Source: Verrucomicrobiota bacterium JB023
Lineage (GTDB): Bacteria; Verrucomicrobiota; Verrucomicrobiia; Verrucomicrobiales; Akkermansiaceae
Direction of reading: 5' to 3'
Assembly (NCBI GenBank): GCA_030673895.1
Contig: JAUTCR010000051.1
Location: 1 to 32,295 of the forward strand
Length of the DNA stretch: 32,295 nucleotides
Shown: positions 14,217-21,667 of the stretch, piece by piece
How positions within the stretch are numbered: the first letter of the stretch is position 1
Layout: each line of letters begins with the position of its first letter
The notes under the pieces: generated by a model
Told to the model about the DNA's origin: nothing
Seen by the model: only the letters and a program-made list of their open reading frames with translations
Databases searched by the model: none
Translations under genes and position numbers: made by a program

Positions 14217-14233
14217 GGAGCTCTTTCAGCTCC
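14217..14233. terminator. hairpin between convergent pheS and channel gene
   Basis: GGAGCT (14217-14222) and AGCTCC (14228-14233) form a perfect 6-bp stem with a five-base loop that contains the stop codon of the channel gene. It sits where pheS transcription should end and may serve both directions. No T-run follows on either strand, so intrinsic termination is uncertain. Confidence 0.3.
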
Positions 14234-15932
14234 CTTGGTGGATCGTCAGTTGAGGGAATGGGATGCCCCAGCCGTTTTCATTGCAGGCATCCAAGCAAGC
14301 CTGTTGCAATGCTCTTTCGATATTGAATCGCTTAGACGCGGCTTCTCCCGTCACCTTGGCCACCACCAGATAATCGAGCGAAGACGCACCGGCTTGCTTG
14401 AAGGCAGAGAAGGTGGCCAGGATCTCCTCCTCCGGGAGGAACTCGAGGAGCTTCTCCCGAATCTTGGCAGCGAAGGTGGTGGCTACCAAGTTGTAGTCCA
14501 AGTGCTGATGCTTGTAGTCGATCCCAAAGGTGCTCGCGAGGGCGTAACCCGTTTTGTAGTTGGTCGGATTCATCGACAGGTAATCACCAGTCGGGATGGT
14601 CTTGATCTGCCCGCCCAGGTCTTGAATGCGCACTCGCTCCGGACTCTGGAAAATCACTTGGCCGAAGGTACCGTCAGAGAGCGAAACCCAGTCGCCTTTC
14701 TCGGTCACGAACCAAGGCTCCTCGTCTTCCTCGTGGCGCATGCGCAGTGTGGCCAGCTCATCGATGGTGATCCGGCGAGCACTATTGGACAAAGCCGGAT
14801 TCTCCAAGAGCGGGTAGAAGCTGAGTGAGCGGACCTCGTAAGGTAGCCCCTCGTAGGTGACCCGCTCACCTTGGCGAACAGGCCCGAGGTTCAGAAGAAG
14901 CTGAACCTTCTCATAGGAGCGGAAGATGGTTTCCTTGGCTCCCCAGAGGATTCCGAGAATGATGAGGATGGTGAGGGTGACGAGGAGCCAATCGTCAAAT
15001 AGCATAAAGACCAGGAAGGCGACACCGATGGCCACACCGAAGCGGAAGATGGTGAACAGCAGCTCGGCGAGGCGGAATGCCAGGGTGCTTCCCGCCTTCC
15101 GGCCCTTGCCCAGTCGACGGAACATGCGCCGCTGGATGCCATTCAGTAACCAAAACAAACCCAGGGAGAGAACCACCGCAAGCAAGAGGCTCCGCCCCCT
15201 CCCGGTAAGAAACGTCTTGGTCCCCTGCCCAATCCGCTCGTAGATAGGAAGGGTATTCTCCCGAATTTCCTTAACCTGTAGCTCGGTCGCAGTGAGGTCG
15301 GCCTCGACGCGGGTGAGGTCGTTGCGGAGATCCTTTTCGATATCATCAAAAAGCTCGCGGAGCTGCTCGTCTTCAACCAGAGCAGCCGATTGCTGGACCT
15401 TGGAAAGGGACTTGCCCAAACGCTCTTTCTTCGAACTGAGGTCATCGACCTCAGTGGTGAGTTCGGTCAATTTGCGGGTGGATTCGGTCGTCTCCCGCAC
15501 CTCGTCGAGGAGCGGATCGAGAAGCATCTTAAAATCTCGGCTGAAATTGAGCTCATCCTCCTCGTCCTCGGCGGAGACCACGAAGCTGTCCCCTTGCGCG
15601 ACCTCTCTAATGCGCTCACGCACAGCGCCCAAATTCTCGGTCAATTTCGTGAGCGCCGCTTCGGCCTTCACAAGGGCCTCCTCATCCGGGGGATCGGCGG
15701 CTTTGAGCTCGTCCAGCTTCTCTCGCGCCTCATTCTGCTCCTGCCGGAGGACCCGGTAGGATTCCAGGATGCCTCCGAGGTCGGAGAGAGCCATCTCATC
15801 TCTTTTTTGCACCTTCTCTGCATCCGATTCCTCCTCGTTAGCCGCGCCATCGCTTTGGGCGGAGAGTGGCTGAAATGCCAACAAGAGCATTAGGATGAGA
15901 AGGTCAAAGCTGGTCCGACGAGTCTTGGCCAT
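14226..15932 (-). CDS. mechanosensitive ion channel family protein with periplasmic coiled coil
   Basis: The 568-residue protein starts with a signal peptide (1-26, cleavage near LSA-QS). A long charged, heptad-like region (about 35-225) follows and is probably a periplasmic coiled coil. Three hydrophobic helices lie near 248-264, 288-311 and 314-331. The C-terminal cytoplasmic part starts with an MscS-like beta region (RQGERVTYEGLPYEV) and a GDWVSLSDGTFGQV segment. The layout recalls large MscS/MscK-type channels that relieve turgor on osmotic downshift. The ATG at 15932 is preferred; a GTG six codons upstream is possible. It stands alone between convergent pheS and the divergent unit at 16042. 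Confidence 0.75.
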   Translation of the reverse strand: MAKTRRTSFDLLILMLLLAFQPLSAQSDGAANEEESDAEKVQKRDEMALSDLGGILESYRVLRQEQNEAREKLDELKAADPPDEEALVKAEAALTKLTENLGAVRERIREVAQGDSFVVSAEDEEDELNFSRDFKMLLDPLLDEVRETTESTRKLTELTTEVDDLSSKKERLGKSLSKVQQSAALVEDEQLRELFDDIEKDLRNDLTRVEADLTATELQVKEIRENTLPIYERIGQGTKTFLTGRGRSLLLAVVLSLGLFWLLNGIQRRMFRRLGKGRKAGSTLAFRLAELLFTIFRFGVAIGVAFLVFMLFDDWLLVTLTILIILGILWGAKETIFRSYEKVQLLLNLGPVRQGERVTYEGLPYEVRSLSFYPLLENPALSNSARRITIDELATLRMRHEEDEEPWFVTEKGDWVSLSDGTFGQVIFQSPERVRIQDLGGQIKTIPTGDYLSMNPTNYKTGYALASTFGIDYKHQHLDYNLVATTFAAKIREKLLEFLPEEEILATFSAFKQAGASSLDYLVVAKVTGEAASKRFNIERALQQACLDACNENGWGIPFPQLTIHQGS

Positions 15933-15982
15933 GCCGTCAAGGAAGCGCACATCGGGCCAACGTCCACCGTAAAATCTGACAG

Positions 15983-16041: not shown

Positions 16042-16725
16042 ATGAAGGGAATCCATCTCGCAATCACCCTCCTCAGCTTTTCCATTTTCGGCACGGCTGC
16101 GGAGCAAAATTTCTGGGAGCAAATCAATCACAATGTCCGCGTAATGAGGCACGAGGACGGAACCAGGACCGAGTACTGGCGCTCCAATGATGAGACGAAG
16201 CTACGCAAAACCCGTTACTCCGATGTCCGGGGGGGCAAGGCTGCTCTGCTCACCACGACGGACTATGCGATGGATAAAAAAGGCAATCCGCTTTCCTGCC
16301 GGATTTATGATGGAAAAGGCAATTGCCTCTTCAAAGTCGCTTACGGCTATCACAAGCGCACCGGTCGCCTGGTGGCGGAGGACATGTTCGATGCCCGCAC
16401 TCCCAAGGTGGATCCTTCCACCGGCAAGGAAGTCCCCGTCCGGAGGATCTACTGGTTCTATGATGCCAACGGAAACAAATCGAAGCCCATCTCGTTTGTC
16501 TTCCGGGCTGGCAAGCGGGCCGAAGATGAATTCGGACCCAAGACGGCTCCGGAGTTCGACCGCAAGGGCTTGGAAAACTACGAGCGCGAGGATCGGGAAG
16601 TGGAGCCCACCTTCCCCTTCGATAATCCCTATAATCCCAGTCTGCAGAATGCGGCTGAGCCTCGCCAAGACGACTTCCTCAATAGCGAGCCGCCGCCCCT
16701 GCCCCCTCTGCGCGGCGACCGTTAA
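16042..16725 (+). CDS. secreted protein of unknown function
   Basis: I do not recognise this 227-residue protein. It has a signal peptide (about 1-20, with FGTAA-EQ at the likely cleavage site). The centre (about 30-160) is rich in aromatic and charged residues and repeats a DxxG pattern (YAMDKKGNPL, YDGKGN, YDANGNK). This recalls YD/RHS-like or MORN-like beta strands, but no repeat family is certain. The C-terminal 60 residues are acidic and proline-rich. A TTG one codon upstream is a less likely start. The next gene starts 9 bp after the stop, which points to a shared transcript that also includes the photolyase. Confidence 0.7.
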   Translation: MKGIHLAITLLSFSIFGTAAEQNFWEQINHNVRVMRHEDGTRTEYWRSNDETKLRKTRYSDVRGGKAALLTTTDYAMDKKGNPLSCRIYDGKGNCLFKVAYGYHKRTGRLVAEDMFDARTPKVDPSTGKEVPVRRIYWFYDANGNKSKPISFVFRAGKRAEDEFGPKTAPEFDRKGLENYEREDREVEPTFPFDNPYNPSLQNAAEPRQDDFLNSEPPPLPPLRGDR

Positions 16726-16734
16726 TCCCGGCGC

Positions 16735-17871
16735 ATGAAACCCGCTCCCCTCCTGGCCACGCTGGTCATTCTGGCGATCGTGGCCAGCCTGATCATTTGG
16801 AACACGAAGGCTCCTCCGCGGGATAGCTTGGATCCCGCTCCCTTGCCGCCTTCGGACGACTTTTTCGGCGATATTGAGGAGCCCGGCCCCGTGGTTCTAC
16901 TCGAGGGACCTCTCGTGCCCCACGAGGACATGGTTCAATTCGTCGAGAAGCACCTCAAGCGCCGCTTCCGGAAGCCTCCCGTCTTCACCCCGGTGCCCGC
17001 CATCGAGATCATCGAGCGGGAAAAAGAGCTGCTATCCGCTTGGGATCGACTGGAGGAGACTGGCCGGTTCTTCGAGGCAATGGGATGGAATCATGAGTTC
17101 ACGCCACTACTTGATAACTTGATCACCATCCGCGTGGGGGAAGTGCGCGGCTACCTCAATGGAGAGGAGAACTGGATCCTGCATGACTTCCAGCCGGACG
17201 ATCCCAGGGATCAGGTCGCTCTCGTCGAGCTCCTTGCCCGCCGCCTGGCTACCGAGCAATTGCCTCCCCTCCCCCCTCAAGCAGCGCCGGCCACCATCCT
17301 GGCCCGCCAGCACTTGATCGCCACCCTGGGCGTCTCCACGCGCAAGGCCTTCGATAAGACCCTTCCTCCCTCCAAGCCGTCGCTACACGAGAACATCCGC
17401 GAGAGCTTGATGATGAGCGTGCCGGTCTTTTTCTATGAACTAGCCAGCTATCCCGAGTTTCAGATTCTCCCCCACCTCAAGAGACCGGAGGTGCCGCTCG
17501 CGTTCACCGACCGCGAGGCCGCCAATGATGCCCATGCCCTTCTTCAACTCCCCGAGCAGAAGCCGACCTTCACGCAATACTCTTTCGGTCCGACCATTCT
17601 CCACATCCTCCTCTATCAAAGCGAAGAGCCGAACAGCGTCCGTCCTCTCGCCGCGACGTTGCGCGGTGACAAGCTTGAAGAAAATGAAGAGGGCTTCCTC
17701 TGGACCCTGGTCTTCAGCAATGCGGATGCCGCCCGCCAAGTTCATCAAGTGCTCTCCCAATCTCCCACCGAGCCGACAAAGCCACCCCGCCGCTACGAGC
17801 AACAAGGCAATGAAGTGACGATTGCGGTGGCGCTGCCGACCGAAGACGGCGAAAACTTGCCGACTCGCTAA
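16735..17871 (+). CDS. membrane-anchored protein of unknown function
   Basis: This 378-residue protein is not recognised. It has one N-terminal membrane helix (about 7-22), then a proline- and acid-rich linker (about 25-60). The rest is soluble and mostly helical, with no cysteine motif or clear catalytic signature. It would face the periplasm. It follows the secreted protein by 9 bp and precedes the photolyase by 18 bp, so the three probably form one unit. The codon use and composition match the neighbours, which argues for a real gene. Confidence 0.68.
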   Translation: MKPAPLLATLVILAIVASLIIWNTKAPPRDSLDPAPLPPSDDFFGDIEEPGPVVLLEGPLVPHEDMVQFVEKHLKRRFRKPPVFTPVPAIEIIEREKELLSAWDRLEETGRFFEAMGWNHEFTPLLDNLITIRVGEVRGYLNGEENWILHDFQPDDPRDQVALVELLARRLATEQLPPLPPQAAPATILARQHLIATLGVSTRKAFDKTLPPSKPSLHENIRESLMMSVPVFFYELASYPEFQILPHLKRPEVPLAFTDREAANDAHALLQLPEQKPTFTQYSFGPTILHILLYQSEEPNSVRPLAATLRGDKLEENEEGFLWTLVFSNADAARQVHQVLSQSPTEPTKPPRRYEQQGNEVTIAVALPTEDGENLPTR

Positions 17872-17889: not shown

Positions 17890-19386
17890 ATGCCCGCCGA
17901 CGCGACCCTCGTCTTCCCCCATCAGCTTTTCGGCAATCATCCCGCCATCTCCCCGGGCCGCCCCGTGTACCTCCTCGAAGACCCCCTATTCTTCGGCACC
18001 GACCGGCATCAACCGCTGCCCCGCATCCATCCTCACAAGCGCACCCTGCACCGTGCCAGCCTCCTGGCCTACCAGGACGAATTGGAGGAAGAAGGCCACC
18101 GGGTCATCCACCTGCGCCTCCCCGCGCAAGAGGCCACCACCGCAGACCTTCTCGCCAAGCTGCCCCTTGCCTCCCTCAAGCGCATCCATTTGTGTGACCC
18201 GGCTGACTACCTGGTCGAGCGACGACTTCGCCGCTTCGCGAAAAAGCACGGTCTCGAACTCATCATTTCGGATTCCCCCAATTTCCTCTCTCCGCCCGAC
18301 TTCCTTGACCAACAATTTCCGGAAGGAAAAAAGCCCTTCATGGCTCGCTTCTACCAAAAGCAGAGACAGCGAATGGGCATCCTCATGGATGATGGCGAAC
18401 CCGTCGGCGGCCAATACTCCTTCGATGAAGAAAACCGGAAAAAGCTGCCGAAGAACCATGCGGTCCCCGCTCCCGGTGAGGCTCAGACCTCAAGCTACCT
18501 CACCGACGCCCAGTCTTGGGTCGAGGAGCGATTTGGCGAAGCGGACGGCCTGCCCGACTTCCCCTACCCCGTCACCCGGCAGCAGGCCGTAGCTTGGCTG
18601 GACAAGTTTCTCGCTGAGCGCTTCCGTGAATTCGGCCCCTATGAAGATGCCATCAGTCGACAGCATCGCATCCTCTTTCACTCGGTCCTCACTCCCTGCC
18701 TCAACATCGGGCTCCTCTCTCCCAACGAGGTGGTCGAGAAGGCTTTGGCATACGGTCAAGATGGCCGCCGCAAGATTCCGCTCAACTCGCTGGAAGGATT
18801 CATCCGGCAAGTGATTGGTTGGCGGGAATTCATGAAGGCGATGTATGACCGGAAGGGCGTGACCATGCGAACCAGAAACTACTGGGACTTCAGTAGAAAG
18901 ATGCCCTCTTCCTTCTACGATGGCACCACGGGCATCCCCCCCATTGACGACACCATTGCCCGGGTCCGCGAGACCGGCTACTGCCACCACATCGAGCGCC
19001 TGATGGTGCTGGGCAATTTCATGCTGCTCTGCCGCATCCATCCCGACGAGGTGTACCGCTGGTTCATGGAGCTCTTTATCGATGCCTATGACTGGGTCAT
19101 GGTCCCGAATGTCTATGGCATGTCTCAATTCGCCGATGGCGGACTCTTCACCACCAAGCCTTACCTATCCGGCTCCAACTACATTCGCAAAATGTCCGAC
19201 TACGGTACCGGGGACTGGTGCCCGGTCTGGGATGGTCTCTATTGGACCTTCATCGGAGATCACTCGGACTTCTTCGAAAGCAATCACCGCCTGGCCATGA
19301 TGGCCCGCACCTATCAGAAGATGGCCGAAGAGAAGAGGGAGAGTCACCGGAAGCATGCCGAGGACTTTCTCTCGTCACTCGACTAA
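17890..19386 (+). CDS. FeS-BCP-type photolyase/cryptochrome lacking most cluster cysteines
   Basis: The 498-residue flavoprotein belongs to the bacterial cryptochrome/(6-4) photolyase (PhrB, FeS-BCP) group. The N-terminal Rossmann-type domain covers about 1-130. The helical FAD-binding part includes IGWREFMKAMY (309-319), HHIERLMVLGNF (366-377) and DAYDWVMVPNVYGMSQFADGG (398-418). In characterised relatives four cysteines hold a 4Fe-4S cluster. Here the first appears to be P351, the YCxxC pair is replaced by YGTG (438-441), and only C444 before WDGLYW remains; the loop between is also about ten residues shorter. The alignment is from memory of the family. The protein may repair UV lesions or act as a light sensor. 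It ends an apparent three-gene unit. Confidence 0.88.
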   Translation: MPADATLVFPHQLFGNHPAISPGRPVYLLEDPLFFGTDRHQPLPRIHPHKRTLHRASLLAYQDELEEEGHRVIHLRLPAQEATTADLLAKLPLASLKRIHLCDPADYLVERRLRRFAKKHGLELIISDSPNFLSPPDFLDQQFPEGKKPFMARFYQKQRQRMGILMDDGEPVGGQYSFDEENRKKLPKNHAVPAPGEAQTSSYLTDAQSWVEERFGEADGLPDFPYPVTRQQAVAWLDKFLAERFREFGPYEDAISRQHRILFHSVLTPCLNIGLLSPNEVVEKALAYGQDGRRKIPLNSLEGFIRQVIGWREFMKAMYDRKGVTMRTRNYWDFSRKMPSSFYDGTTGIPPIDDTIARVRETGYCHHIERLMVLGNFMLLCRIHPDEVYRWFMELFIDAYDWVMVPNVYGMSQFADGGLFTTKPYLSGSNYIRKMSDYGTGDWCPVWDGLYWTFIGDHSDFFESNHRLAMMARTYQKMAEEKRESHRKHAEDFLSSLD

Positions 19387-19419: not shown

Positions 19420-19887
19420 TCAAGCAGCCTCGAAGCCGGTATCATCCCGTAGAGAACCTCCGTCGGCAGCGGCAGTCGCCAGCTCATCGCAGCGCTCGTT
19501 CTCCGCGTGGCCATCATGGCCTTTGACCCAATGCCAGCTCACCTCATGCTTTTGCCTCAGACGGTCCAGTTCCTGCCAGAGGTCGACATTGGCCAGCTTC
19601 TCGCCCTTGCCTCTCTTCCAGCCTTTCTTCTTCCAGCCTTCGATCCACTTCTTGTTATTCGCATCGACGAGGTATTTGGAGTCGGAATAGAGCATCACTT
19701 GGCAAGGTCTCGTCAAGGAAGCGAGACCTGCAATGGCCGCCATTAGCTCCATCCGGTTGTTCGTCGTCTTGCGATAACCTTCGCTCAGTTCCTTGGTCCA
19801 GGTTCCGGACCTCATGACGACTCCGTATCCCCCTTTTCCCGGATTCCCCCGGCAAGCTCCATCGGTATAGATTTCAACCTTCGTCAT
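19420..19887 (-). CDS. rnhA: ribonuclease HI
   Basis: The 155-residue enzyme cuts the RNA strand of RNA-DNA hybrids, for example at replication primers and R-loops. The four metal-binding acidic residues are D9 (YTDGACRGNPG), E47 (NNRMEL), D69 (YSDSKYL) and D134 (ERCDELA), and the loop histidine is H124 in KGHDGH. A basic protrusion (KKWIEGWKKKGWKRGKG) that binds the hybrid is present as in E. coli. The ATG at 19887 lies inside the 3' end of the kinase gene, a 14-bp overlap that suggests translational coupling. Confidence 0.97.
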   Translation of the reverse strand: MTKVEIYTDGACRGNPGKGGYGVVMRSGTWTKELSEGYRKTTNNRMELMAAIAGLASLTRPCQVMLYSDSKYLVDANNKKWIEGWKKKGWKRGKGEKLANVDLWQELDRLRQKHEVSWHWVKGHDGHAENERCDELATAAADGGSLRDDTGFEAA

Positions 19888-21667
19888 TGATCAATTCTTC
19901 TTCCAGGCCCCGCCTCGTCGCATGCAGCCAGCTCTGCCAACTGCGCACGATGAAACGCGCCCGTCCAGCTGAATCCAGCTTCTTCAGCAAGTCATCCAAC
20001 CCTGCGAGCGACTCGCTAATTCCATCGACCGTCCAATCCCGCTGCCAATCGGGCTCCGCCTCCTCAAGTCGCTCGGCATCGCGGGCGATGCGGCCCGCCC
20101 ACTGCCGGTAGATGGCGAGTGACGCGCTTTCCCGCCCGGTTGACTCCTGAGCAGCCAGCGCGGCAAGAGCTTCCGCTGCCTGCCTGTCACCCTGCTCCCA
20201 ATTCTTCAGCGCCTTGGCAAAATAGAATAACGAACCCGTGCTACTTTCCGGCGGATTGGGTGGAAGCTCGATGAAAGGAAGACCGTTCCAGCCCTGGGCC
20301 AATTCCGTGAAGCCCTGTCGCAATTGGCTCTCGAGCCCCACCTTCCCGGCATGGCGGCCCAGCCGGCGAAAGTGAGCCCTCGCATCGGCCGAACGACCGT
20401 CCAAACCTGCCGCAACGCCAGCCTCGAAGCAGGCCCAGGAAGCAGTGGGCTCTGGAACCCCGGTCGACTTCCAGATGGCCGAAAAAGCCTCCTCGGAAGC
20501 ATTGAAGTGCCCCTCTGCGAGGAGCTTGCGCGCGTCCTGATACCGCTGCCCGATAGCCAGTTCCGCGCTTTGCTGGGTGGGAGGGAGAGCACTCGGCTCC
20601 GGCTCTTCGGCGACCTCCTGCTTGTCCCGCAGCGCTAGGACAAGCCCTCCAGAAAGAATGGCGAAGGCGAGCACGCAGGCGACCGCTATGGTCATCCCGT
20701 TGCCCTTCCTTCGTTGCCGCCGGCTCTGCAGCAGCGGGGCGTCAGCCGGGGCCCTCCCCTCCAAGGCATCGCGCAGAGCCGCCTTCATGTCTTCGTAGGA
20801 GCCAAACCGTTCCGCCGGGAGGAAAGCCATCGCTCGATCCACCGCATAGCCCGTGGCCTCACTGACGTGGGGAGCCATCTTCCTCAGCGGCAGCACTTGC
20901 TGCTTGGCCTCCCGAAGAACCTTGGTGCCCGTCGAAGAGGTCGAGATCGGAGGCTTCCCCGCCAAGGCATGGTAGAGACTCGCGCCGAGCGCATACATGT
21001 CGCTGCGAAAATCCTCCTCGGTCGCTCCGAGCGCCTCAGGAGAGGCGTAGTAGGGGGTCGCGAAAACTTCCTCTGCCTTGGCCCGCCCTCCTTGCGTGAC
21101 GAGGGAGAGACCGAAATCGACCAGCTTCACCGTGCCCTTTCCATTCACCAGAATATTCCCCGGCTTGATGTCGCGATGGATCAGGCCGGATTGCTTCGCA
21201 GCCTGCAGTCCCTCCACGACCTGGATGGCAATCTTGAGAATTTCTTTTTCGGGTAAAGGCTCCCCGCTCTCCATGCGCTTCTCGAGACTCTCCCCATTGA
21301 CCAGCTCCATCGCGATGTAGAAGCGACCGTGAGCGCGGCCAACGGTGTAAACCCGCACCACGTTGGGATGGCTTACCAAGGCGGTCAATTCAGCCTCTTT
21401 TTCAAACTGGGCAGCCCGGGTCTCGTCACCAGAATACTCTTCATTCAGCACCTTGAGGGCGACCTCTCGCCCAAGCGTCTGATCACGGGCCACGAAGACG
21501 ACACTCATCCCCCCAAACGCATGCCGACGGTCAAGCAGGTAGGGCCCGAAATCGATCTTAACCCGCACCTCGGTATCGCAGTTAGGGCAGCGGACACGGG
21601 CAAAAGGCGCCGCCGCCGTCACATCCATGACCGCCTCGCAGTTTCCACACTTCGCCAATTCAGACAT
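19874..21667 (-). CDS. zinc-ribbon Ser/Thr protein kinase with TPR-like C-terminus
   Basis: The 597-residue protein begins with a zinc ribbon (C7-x2-C10 and C27-x2-C30). A Hanks-type kinase domain follows (about 41-305). The ATP lysine is K72 in VALKVL, the catalytic loop is HRDIKPGN with D166, DFG is at 184-186, and an APE-like SPEAL follows. The glycine loop is FGGMSVVFVA. A basic linker leads to one membrane helix (about 325-346), and the 250-residue remainder is helical and TPR-like, probably periplasmic. A strong GGAGG lies about seven bases before the ATG. The substrate is unknown. The gene overlaps rnhA by 14 bp and is divergent from the SLBB gene. Confidence 0.92.
   Translation of the reverse strand: MSELAKCGNCEAVMDVTAAAPFARVRCPNCDTEVRVKIDFGPYLLDRRHAFGGMSVVFVARDQTLGREVALKVLNEEYSGDETRAAQFEKEAELTALVSHPNVVRVYTVGRAHGRFYIAMELVNGESLEKRMESGEPLPEKEILKIAIQVVEGLQAAKQSGLIHRDIKPGNILVNGKGTVKLVDFGLSLVTQGGRAKAEEVFATPYYASPEALGATEEDFRSDMYALGASLYHALAGKPPISTSSTGTKVLREAKQQVLPLRKMAPHVSEATGYAVDRAMAFLPAERFGSYEDMKAALRDALEGRAPADAPLLQSRRQRRKGNGMTIAVACVLAFAILSGGLVLALRDKQEVAEEPEPSALPPTQQSAELAIGQRYQDARKLLAEGHFNASEEAFSAIWKSTGVPEPTASWACFEAGVAAGLDGRSADARAHFRRLGRHAGKVGLESQLRQGFTELAQGWNGLPFIELPPNPPESSTGSLFYFAKALKNWEQGDRQAAEALAALAAQESTGRESASLAIYRQWAGRIARDAERLEEAEPDWQRDWTVDGISESLAGLDDLLKKLDSAGRARFIVRSWQSWLHATRRGLEEELINDEG

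Follow-up and report, generated by a model that had tools for sequence, protein, structure and literature searches.

The photolyase gene at positions 17890..19386 (+) of the DNA analyzed here, nucleotides 1 to 32,295 of contig JAUTCR010000051.1 of Verrucomicrobiota bacterium JB023 (a stretch of 32,295 nucleotides, hereafter the window), raises the question of whether a relative of the cluster-bearing photolyase PhrB can do without the cysteines that hold a [4Fe-4S] cluster and, if so, what has taken their place. The gene has an ATG start and no internal stop and encodes 498 amino acids. Its product has an N-terminal alpha/beta (antenna) domain, PF04244, at residues 7-220 (17908..18549, +; Pfam 158 bits, E 4.1e-46) and, over residues 309-402, matches PF03441, the photolyase FAD domain (35 bits). 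Its eight closest solved chains by phmmer were all prokaryotic 6-4 photolyases or CryB. A sequence-only reading of this gene had described it as an FeS-BCP-type photolyase with an intact family core. That description of the core held, as this is a full-length PF04244 photolyase with the flavin and active-site core kept, and the residue numbering of that reading was correct.

The JB023 assembly spans 4.03 Mb in 77 contigs and is 97.5% complete. It has one PF04244 gene, that of the window, and one other photolyase (PF00875 plus PF03441) on a separate contig. With that single other photolyase in the genome, a second, 6-4 enzyme makes sense. The nearest named relative, from Roseibacillus persicicus (L003), has 69% identity and is identical in sequence to a copy in a same-genus genome, from which we infer that the window probably derives from a verrucomicrobium close to Roseibacillus.

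Fate of the four cluster ligand positions

Relatives of the window protein were gathered from the best 80 matches in named genomes, from 98 genomes ranging from the same genus to the same order (30 loci including the window, and 40 more regions), from 12 of the 88 plasmid records with a match (best 47%), and from 50 further loci from two phyla. The same search in phages gave no match. Matches of more than 120 bits were classified, the lower ones being other photolyase classes. Removal of 11 identical rows left 202 distinct rows, including the window protein and PhrB, of which three (L144, L149 and L197) were fragments under 400 amino acids. The state of the ligands in these rows was all-or-none: 50 had all four cysteines, 152 had none, and no row was partial. 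The best 80 matches were all cluster-free, as expected from picking by best match, and the ratio of 152 to 50 is thus not a natural frequency; samples from phyla, of 288, 198 and 146 genomes, are fairer in this respect.

The PhrB ligands (C350, C438, C441 and C454) were located in the PhrB chain itself and used as reference positions. Proline P351 of the window protein lies opposite C350, as the sequence-only reading had proposed. Also as proposed, the YC438xxC441 pair of PhrB is replaced by Y438-G-T-G441 (19201..19212, +); a deletion of about ten residues starts here, such that C438 and C441 face either YGTG or the deletion, and the loop before the last cysteine is indeed shortened. The further claim, that three of the four cysteines are lost and the fourth is retained as C444, stood only in its first half. 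Both MAFFT and phmmer against PhrB placed P445, not C444, opposite C454, while phmmer run against the Caulobacter chain paired C444 with the last ligand cysteine. The alignment is ambiguous here, and C444 falls opposite A453 or C454 of PhrB depending on the alignment used. Position 444 is not conserved among the cluster-free rows (C in 79 of 152, Q in 38, E in 11, A in 7 and T in 7), and because of this variation C444 is no convincing fourth ligand. Where FeS-BCP enzymes have four cysteines, the window protein therefore has P351, G439 or a gap, a gap, and P445 or C444, and on these alignments none of the four PhrB ligands can be called kept.

A cluster might still be bound through other ligands, such as C365, C381, C444 or non-cysteine residues, or be present in another form. 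The frequency of cysteine at 381 (135 of 152 cluster-free rows) and at 365 (98 of 152) and the pairing of C444 against the Caulobacter chain are consistent with this idea. Set against it are the replacement or deletion of two ligand positions, proline at the first in 149 of the 152 rows, and the variability of position 444, and we regard it as very unlikely. C365, which adjoins the active-site histidine, and C381 both align outside the C-terminal cluster region of PhrB. Their takeover of the ligand positions, which the sequence-only reading had named as the finding that would speak against it, does not hold across the 152 cluster-free rows, and C365 and C381 were rejected as substitute ligands on account of their location and the presence of cysteine at 365 in only 98 rows.

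The missing cysteines are neither chance nor a sequencing error, given that 152 of the 202 distinct rows are alike in this respect. Beyond those missing cysteines, nothing pointed to a decaying or misassembled copy of a normal cluster-bearing enzyme. The full-length open frame, the 68-69% identity to same-genus relatives, the high-confidence predicted fold and a replacement motif common to 151 of the 152 cluster-free rows all speak against such a copy, an explanation that clade-wide conservation renders untenable.

The replacement motif and the predicted fold

At the place of the first ligand, C350, the window protein has the segment G348-I-P-P351-I-D353 (18931..18948, +), in which the glycine is found in 151, the proline in 149 and the aspartate in 151 of the 152 cluster-free rows; position 351 is cysteine in all 50 cluster-type rows. 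At the place of C454-P-F-[NT] is W443-C-P-V-W447-D448 (19216..19233, +), whose W443, W447 and D448 each recur in 151 of 152 rows, and position 447 is F or L in cluster-type rows. The frequencies of the two tryptophans must be read with the rule that defined the group, of which W443 and W447 were part, although only one ligand-less row failed that rule: 151 cluster-free rows had none of the first three cysteines and had both tryptophans, and one (L186) had neither the ligands nor the tryptophan pair. L186 (G412:C19:22537-23961) came from the phylum sample of Cellulophaga, has 43-44% identity, and has its P351 and 438-448 segments rewritten.

An AlphaFold2 model of the window protein, built with 52 clade sequences, had a mean pLDDT of 92.5. 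Residues 431-460 scored 95-98, and confidence fell to 58 at residues 411-420. Structural superposition on PhrB gave a Z score of 43.1 and an rmsd of 2.2 over 484 residues. Nine other prokaryotic 6-4 photolyase or CryB entries gave Z scores of 41.2-43.6, and the next entry one of 27.2. Identity in these structural alignments to the solved prokaryotic 6-4 photolyases and CryB was 29-34%. The window protein thus combines the PF04244 N-terminal domain and the photolyase FAD domain with a predicted PhrB fold, the features of the group as a whole.

In PhrB, mutants of the cluster ligands were reported to be insoluble or not expressed (PMC4619345). This shows that a protein without the cluster has to compensate for it. 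We propose that the tryptophan pair W443/W447 fills the cluster site, and that the shorter loop with the near-invariant G348, P351, D353, W443, W447 and D448 would do the structural job of the cluster. The two branches would then be alternative solutions to one structural problem, a protein-only lock (G348-x-x-P351-x-D353 with W443-x-x-x-W447-D448) and a [4Fe-4S] cluster, an idea to which we give an even chance of being right.

Phylogeny and distribution of the two types

For phylogenetic analysis the rows were thinned to 53 of the 151 cluster-free and 24 of the 50 cluster-type rows, plus L186; the final tree excluded L131, L186 and L161, which were long or odd, and six outgroup rows. When the ligand columns were removed from the alignment, a single branch of the unrooted tree separated 52 cluster-free rows from 23 cluster-type rows, with 100% ultrafast bootstrap and 100% SH-aLRT. 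An outgroup of six photolyase rows proved too remote to root the tree: its branch measured 4.5 changes per column, and support for the two groups dropped (SH-aLRT 68 for the cluster-free and 82 for the cluster type). The unrooted tree is compatible both with loss of the cluster on the cluster-free side and with its gain on the opposite side. The suggestion of the sequence-only reading that the missing ligands mark a separate subclade was borne out once the ligands were mapped on this tree, but the clade is already in print and the branch is not new.

By record title, cluster-free loci were found in Verrucomicrobiota, Bacteroidota, Ignavibacteriota, Nitrospirota, Planctomycetota, Deinococcota, Acidobacteriota and a cyanobacterium, although metagenome bins may carry wrong titles. 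A further 20 loci from the phylum of the genome titled 'uncultured cyanobacterium' comprised seven cluster-free loci, among them L217, which is the same gene as L029, and 13 of the cluster type; L221 and L222, also among the cluster-free loci of this set, come from small low-GC genomes and resemble Prochlorococcus.

Genomes were typed by identity band. Cluster-free and cluster-type enzymes were found, respectively, in 51 and 24 of the 98 genomes, in 15 and 34 of the 288, in 23 and 42 of the 198, and in 7 and 31 of the 146; the first two samples overlap and their counts are not additive. No genome in any of these four samples had both types by identity band. The ligand state was read from the sequence itself for 49 of the 51 cluster-free and 20 of the 24 cluster-type genomes in the first sample (G090, one of those left unread, is only a short piece at an end), 15 of 15 and 11 of 34 in the second, 23 of 23 and 10 of 42 in the third, and 7 of 7 and 13 of 31 in the fourth, and every reading matched its band. 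Two genomes of the 146-genome sample with weaker or broken matches (G594 and G657) lay outside the typed set. The mutual absence of the two types supports, without proving, the view that they do the same job, as the pattern follows kinship.

Several individual loci in these samples were unusual. One genome of the class has two cluster-type genes, one of which is a 203-residue C-terminal piece (L197 and L198; G340:C29:14267-14785 and G340:C89:35697-37199). In G657 (G657:C1:720040-721553) the family photolyase is in pieces with an internal stop and is probably a broken copy. Lastly, L131 (G016:C41:179581-181059), from the same family as the window genome, is a long-branched, cluster-free protein with 40-41% identity that has Q for the active-site histidine, T for the counterpart of Tyr430 and V near FAD N5. 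Judging from these substitutions, L131 may have lost repair and is a candidate cryptochrome. As it lacks the histidine and Tyr430 counterparts, not every cluster-free member need be a repair enzyme.

The gene neighborhood was also compared. The ORFs at 14226-15950, 16187-16738 and 16735-17871 of the window had no Pfam match. Downstream, convergent to the photolyase gene, are genes for an RNase H (19420-19887, -) and a serine/threonine kinase (19874-21667, -), which overlap one another, lie on the opposite strand and are unrelated to light. The order of photolyase, RNase H and kinase is kept in R. persicicus, where homologues of both lie beside the photolyase. Bacteroidota relatives often have nearby a short photolyase-like gene, a flavin reductase and a TIGR03643 gene, homologues of which occurred on 21, 20 and 18, respectively, of the best 80 loci, all of them cluster-free and several cut short. 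An example is Cellulophaga baltica (L034, 3416-7476), in which the cluster-free photolyase adjoins DUF2452, TIGR03643, a 378-residue photolyase-like protein with the FAD domain only, and a flavin reductase; similar loci exist.

Repair residues, electron path and relation to subgroup M

To judge function we relied on the residues characterized in PhrB, in which H366N and Y424F abolish repair, Y430F lowers it to 30% (PMC4619345) and D179 has a role at the Mg site (PMC12082625). All five PhrB repair residues tested are present in the window protein. The active-site histidine H366 corresponds to H367 (18988..18990, +; H in 151 of the 152 cluster-free rows and in all 50 of the cluster type), the lesion-binding Y424 to Y425 (19162..19164, +; 152 of 152), and Y430 to Y431 (19180..19182, +; 151 of 152). 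The Mg-site residues D179 and D254 correspond to D179 (18424..18426, +; 152 of 152) and D253 (18646..18648, +; 152 of 152, and 129 of 130 in another alignment).

The electron path is altered. The PhrB W390 counterpart, W391 (19060..19062, +), is kept in 151 of 152 cluster-free rows, and the place of W342, the surface end of the path, is taken by Y343 (18916..18918, +; Y in 111 and W in 39 of 152). Phenylalanine replaces PhrB Y391 in 151, Y395 in 135 and Y460 in 115 of the 152 rows, the window protein keeping the last of these as tyrosine. Near FAD N5, M404 (19099..19101, +) is at the place of PhrB E403; methionine is found here in 151 of 152 cluster-free rows, while the 50 cluster-type rows have E in 27, V in 10, M in 8 and S in 4. 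The cluster-free homologues were said by Graf et al. (2015, PMC4619345) to have no tyrosine at 437 and 443. Our data disagree for the 437 column, where tyrosine occurs in 104 of 152 cluster-free rows, including the window protein.

The antenna pocket has also changed. The DMRL pocket of PhrB is formed by Leu8-Gly9-Asp10, the Glu37-Arg108 pair, a Y-V-x-H loop and Ile51 (PMC9178010). At these places the window protein has F9-P10-H11, F34, L108, H54 and a longer loop, and the counterparts of K47 and E33 are kept. DMRL synthase is present in the genome, as it is in all 14 controls. As an alternative antenna, 8-HDF was considered and rejected: the genome has no CofG match over the curated cut-off (two weak matches of 29 and 28 bits against 213; three of 14 controls exceed the cut-off).

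With an altered electron path and replaced pocket residues a changed function is possible, and the window protein could be a bacterial cryptochrome of the cluster-free type, which would have this fold and sense blue light but no longer repair DNA. CryB of Rhodobacter has regulatory functions (PMC9178010), and repair residues can be lost by members of the branch, as in L131. Yet the window protein, like 151-152 of the 152 cluster-free rows, retains the residues without which PhrB repairs poorly or not at all, another photolyase-like gene is often near in the Bacteroidota relatives, and the two types replace each other across genomes. We therefore consider a cryptochrome improbable. The retention of the PhrB repair residues in nearly all cluster-free rows points to a working 6-4 photolyase, and the window protein is, on comparative grounds, very probably such an enzyme, of the cluster-free branch (subgroup M, below) and without a cluster. 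We infer that it has no iron, that it repairs DNA, that the lesion is the 6-4 photoproduct and that the replacement set has a packing role. The enzyme would bind FAD, which blue light, perhaps with the help of an antenna, would bring to FADH-; the 6-4 photoproduct would be held by Y425/Y431 and H367 and reversed through electron transfer.

Cluster-free homologues were described previously. It has been reported that the homologues without Tyr460, 7% of 464, are also without the cluster cysteines (Graf et al. 2015, PMC4619345), and that among the seven subgroups formed by 110 sequences only subgroup M, with 20 members from multiple lineages including PromaPL of Prochlorococcus marinus, is without the cysteines (Chen et al. 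2022, PMC9178010). The latter authors proposed the name 'prokaryotic 6-4 photolyases' for the whole, with FeS-BCP as a subtype. In the same text, cluster-free homologues including PromaPL are called 6-4 photolyases, the antenna pattern of subgroup M is complex, and members of Chl, HC, Ac and M have no intact electron chain. The window protein resembles subgroup M in family, in the absence of cluster cysteines, in belonging to a separate clade and in the spread of that clade over multiple lineages, and its methionine near FAD N5 is shared with many members outside the A, B and G groups (PMC9178010). No separating difference from subgroup M was found, and by every feature tested the window protein would be a further member of it, PromaPL having been compared by description only. 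Neither a verrucomicrobial member nor the replacement motif was the subject of any paper found in the literature searched, which omits most subscription journals.

With the FeS-BCP enzymes (PhrB, 4dja; CryB, 3zxs; Caulobacter, 9hnk; Vibrio, 7ykn and 8a1h; Synechococcus, 8ijy) the window protein shares the fold, at the Z scores given above (41.2-43.6), as well as the active-site histidine, the lesion-binding tyrosine, the Mg-site aspartate and the medial tryptophan. It differs from them in having no ligands, a loop about ten residues shorter and the Pro/Asp and Trp/Asp set instead, in the change of the W342, Y391, Y395 and E403 counterparts to Y, F, F and M, and in its antenna pocket residues.

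What is useful beyond the published work is the replacement motif, the all-or-none pattern of the ligands and the occurrence of the two types in different genomes. If the protein-only lock is real, the chemistry of 6-4 repair does not depend on the cluster, and the two enzymes would be interchangeable versions of one function, no genome having been seen with both. A loop swap would then yield a soluble, cluster-free version of a cluster-bearing enzyme, which mutagenesis of the PhrB ligands could not attain. Many members of the branch would serve as examples, and the window protein is not unique in this regard. This large natural branch shares the active-site residues of the cluster-bearing enzymes but has no cluster ligands, and so provides a control, out of reach of mutagenesis, for working out what the cluster does.
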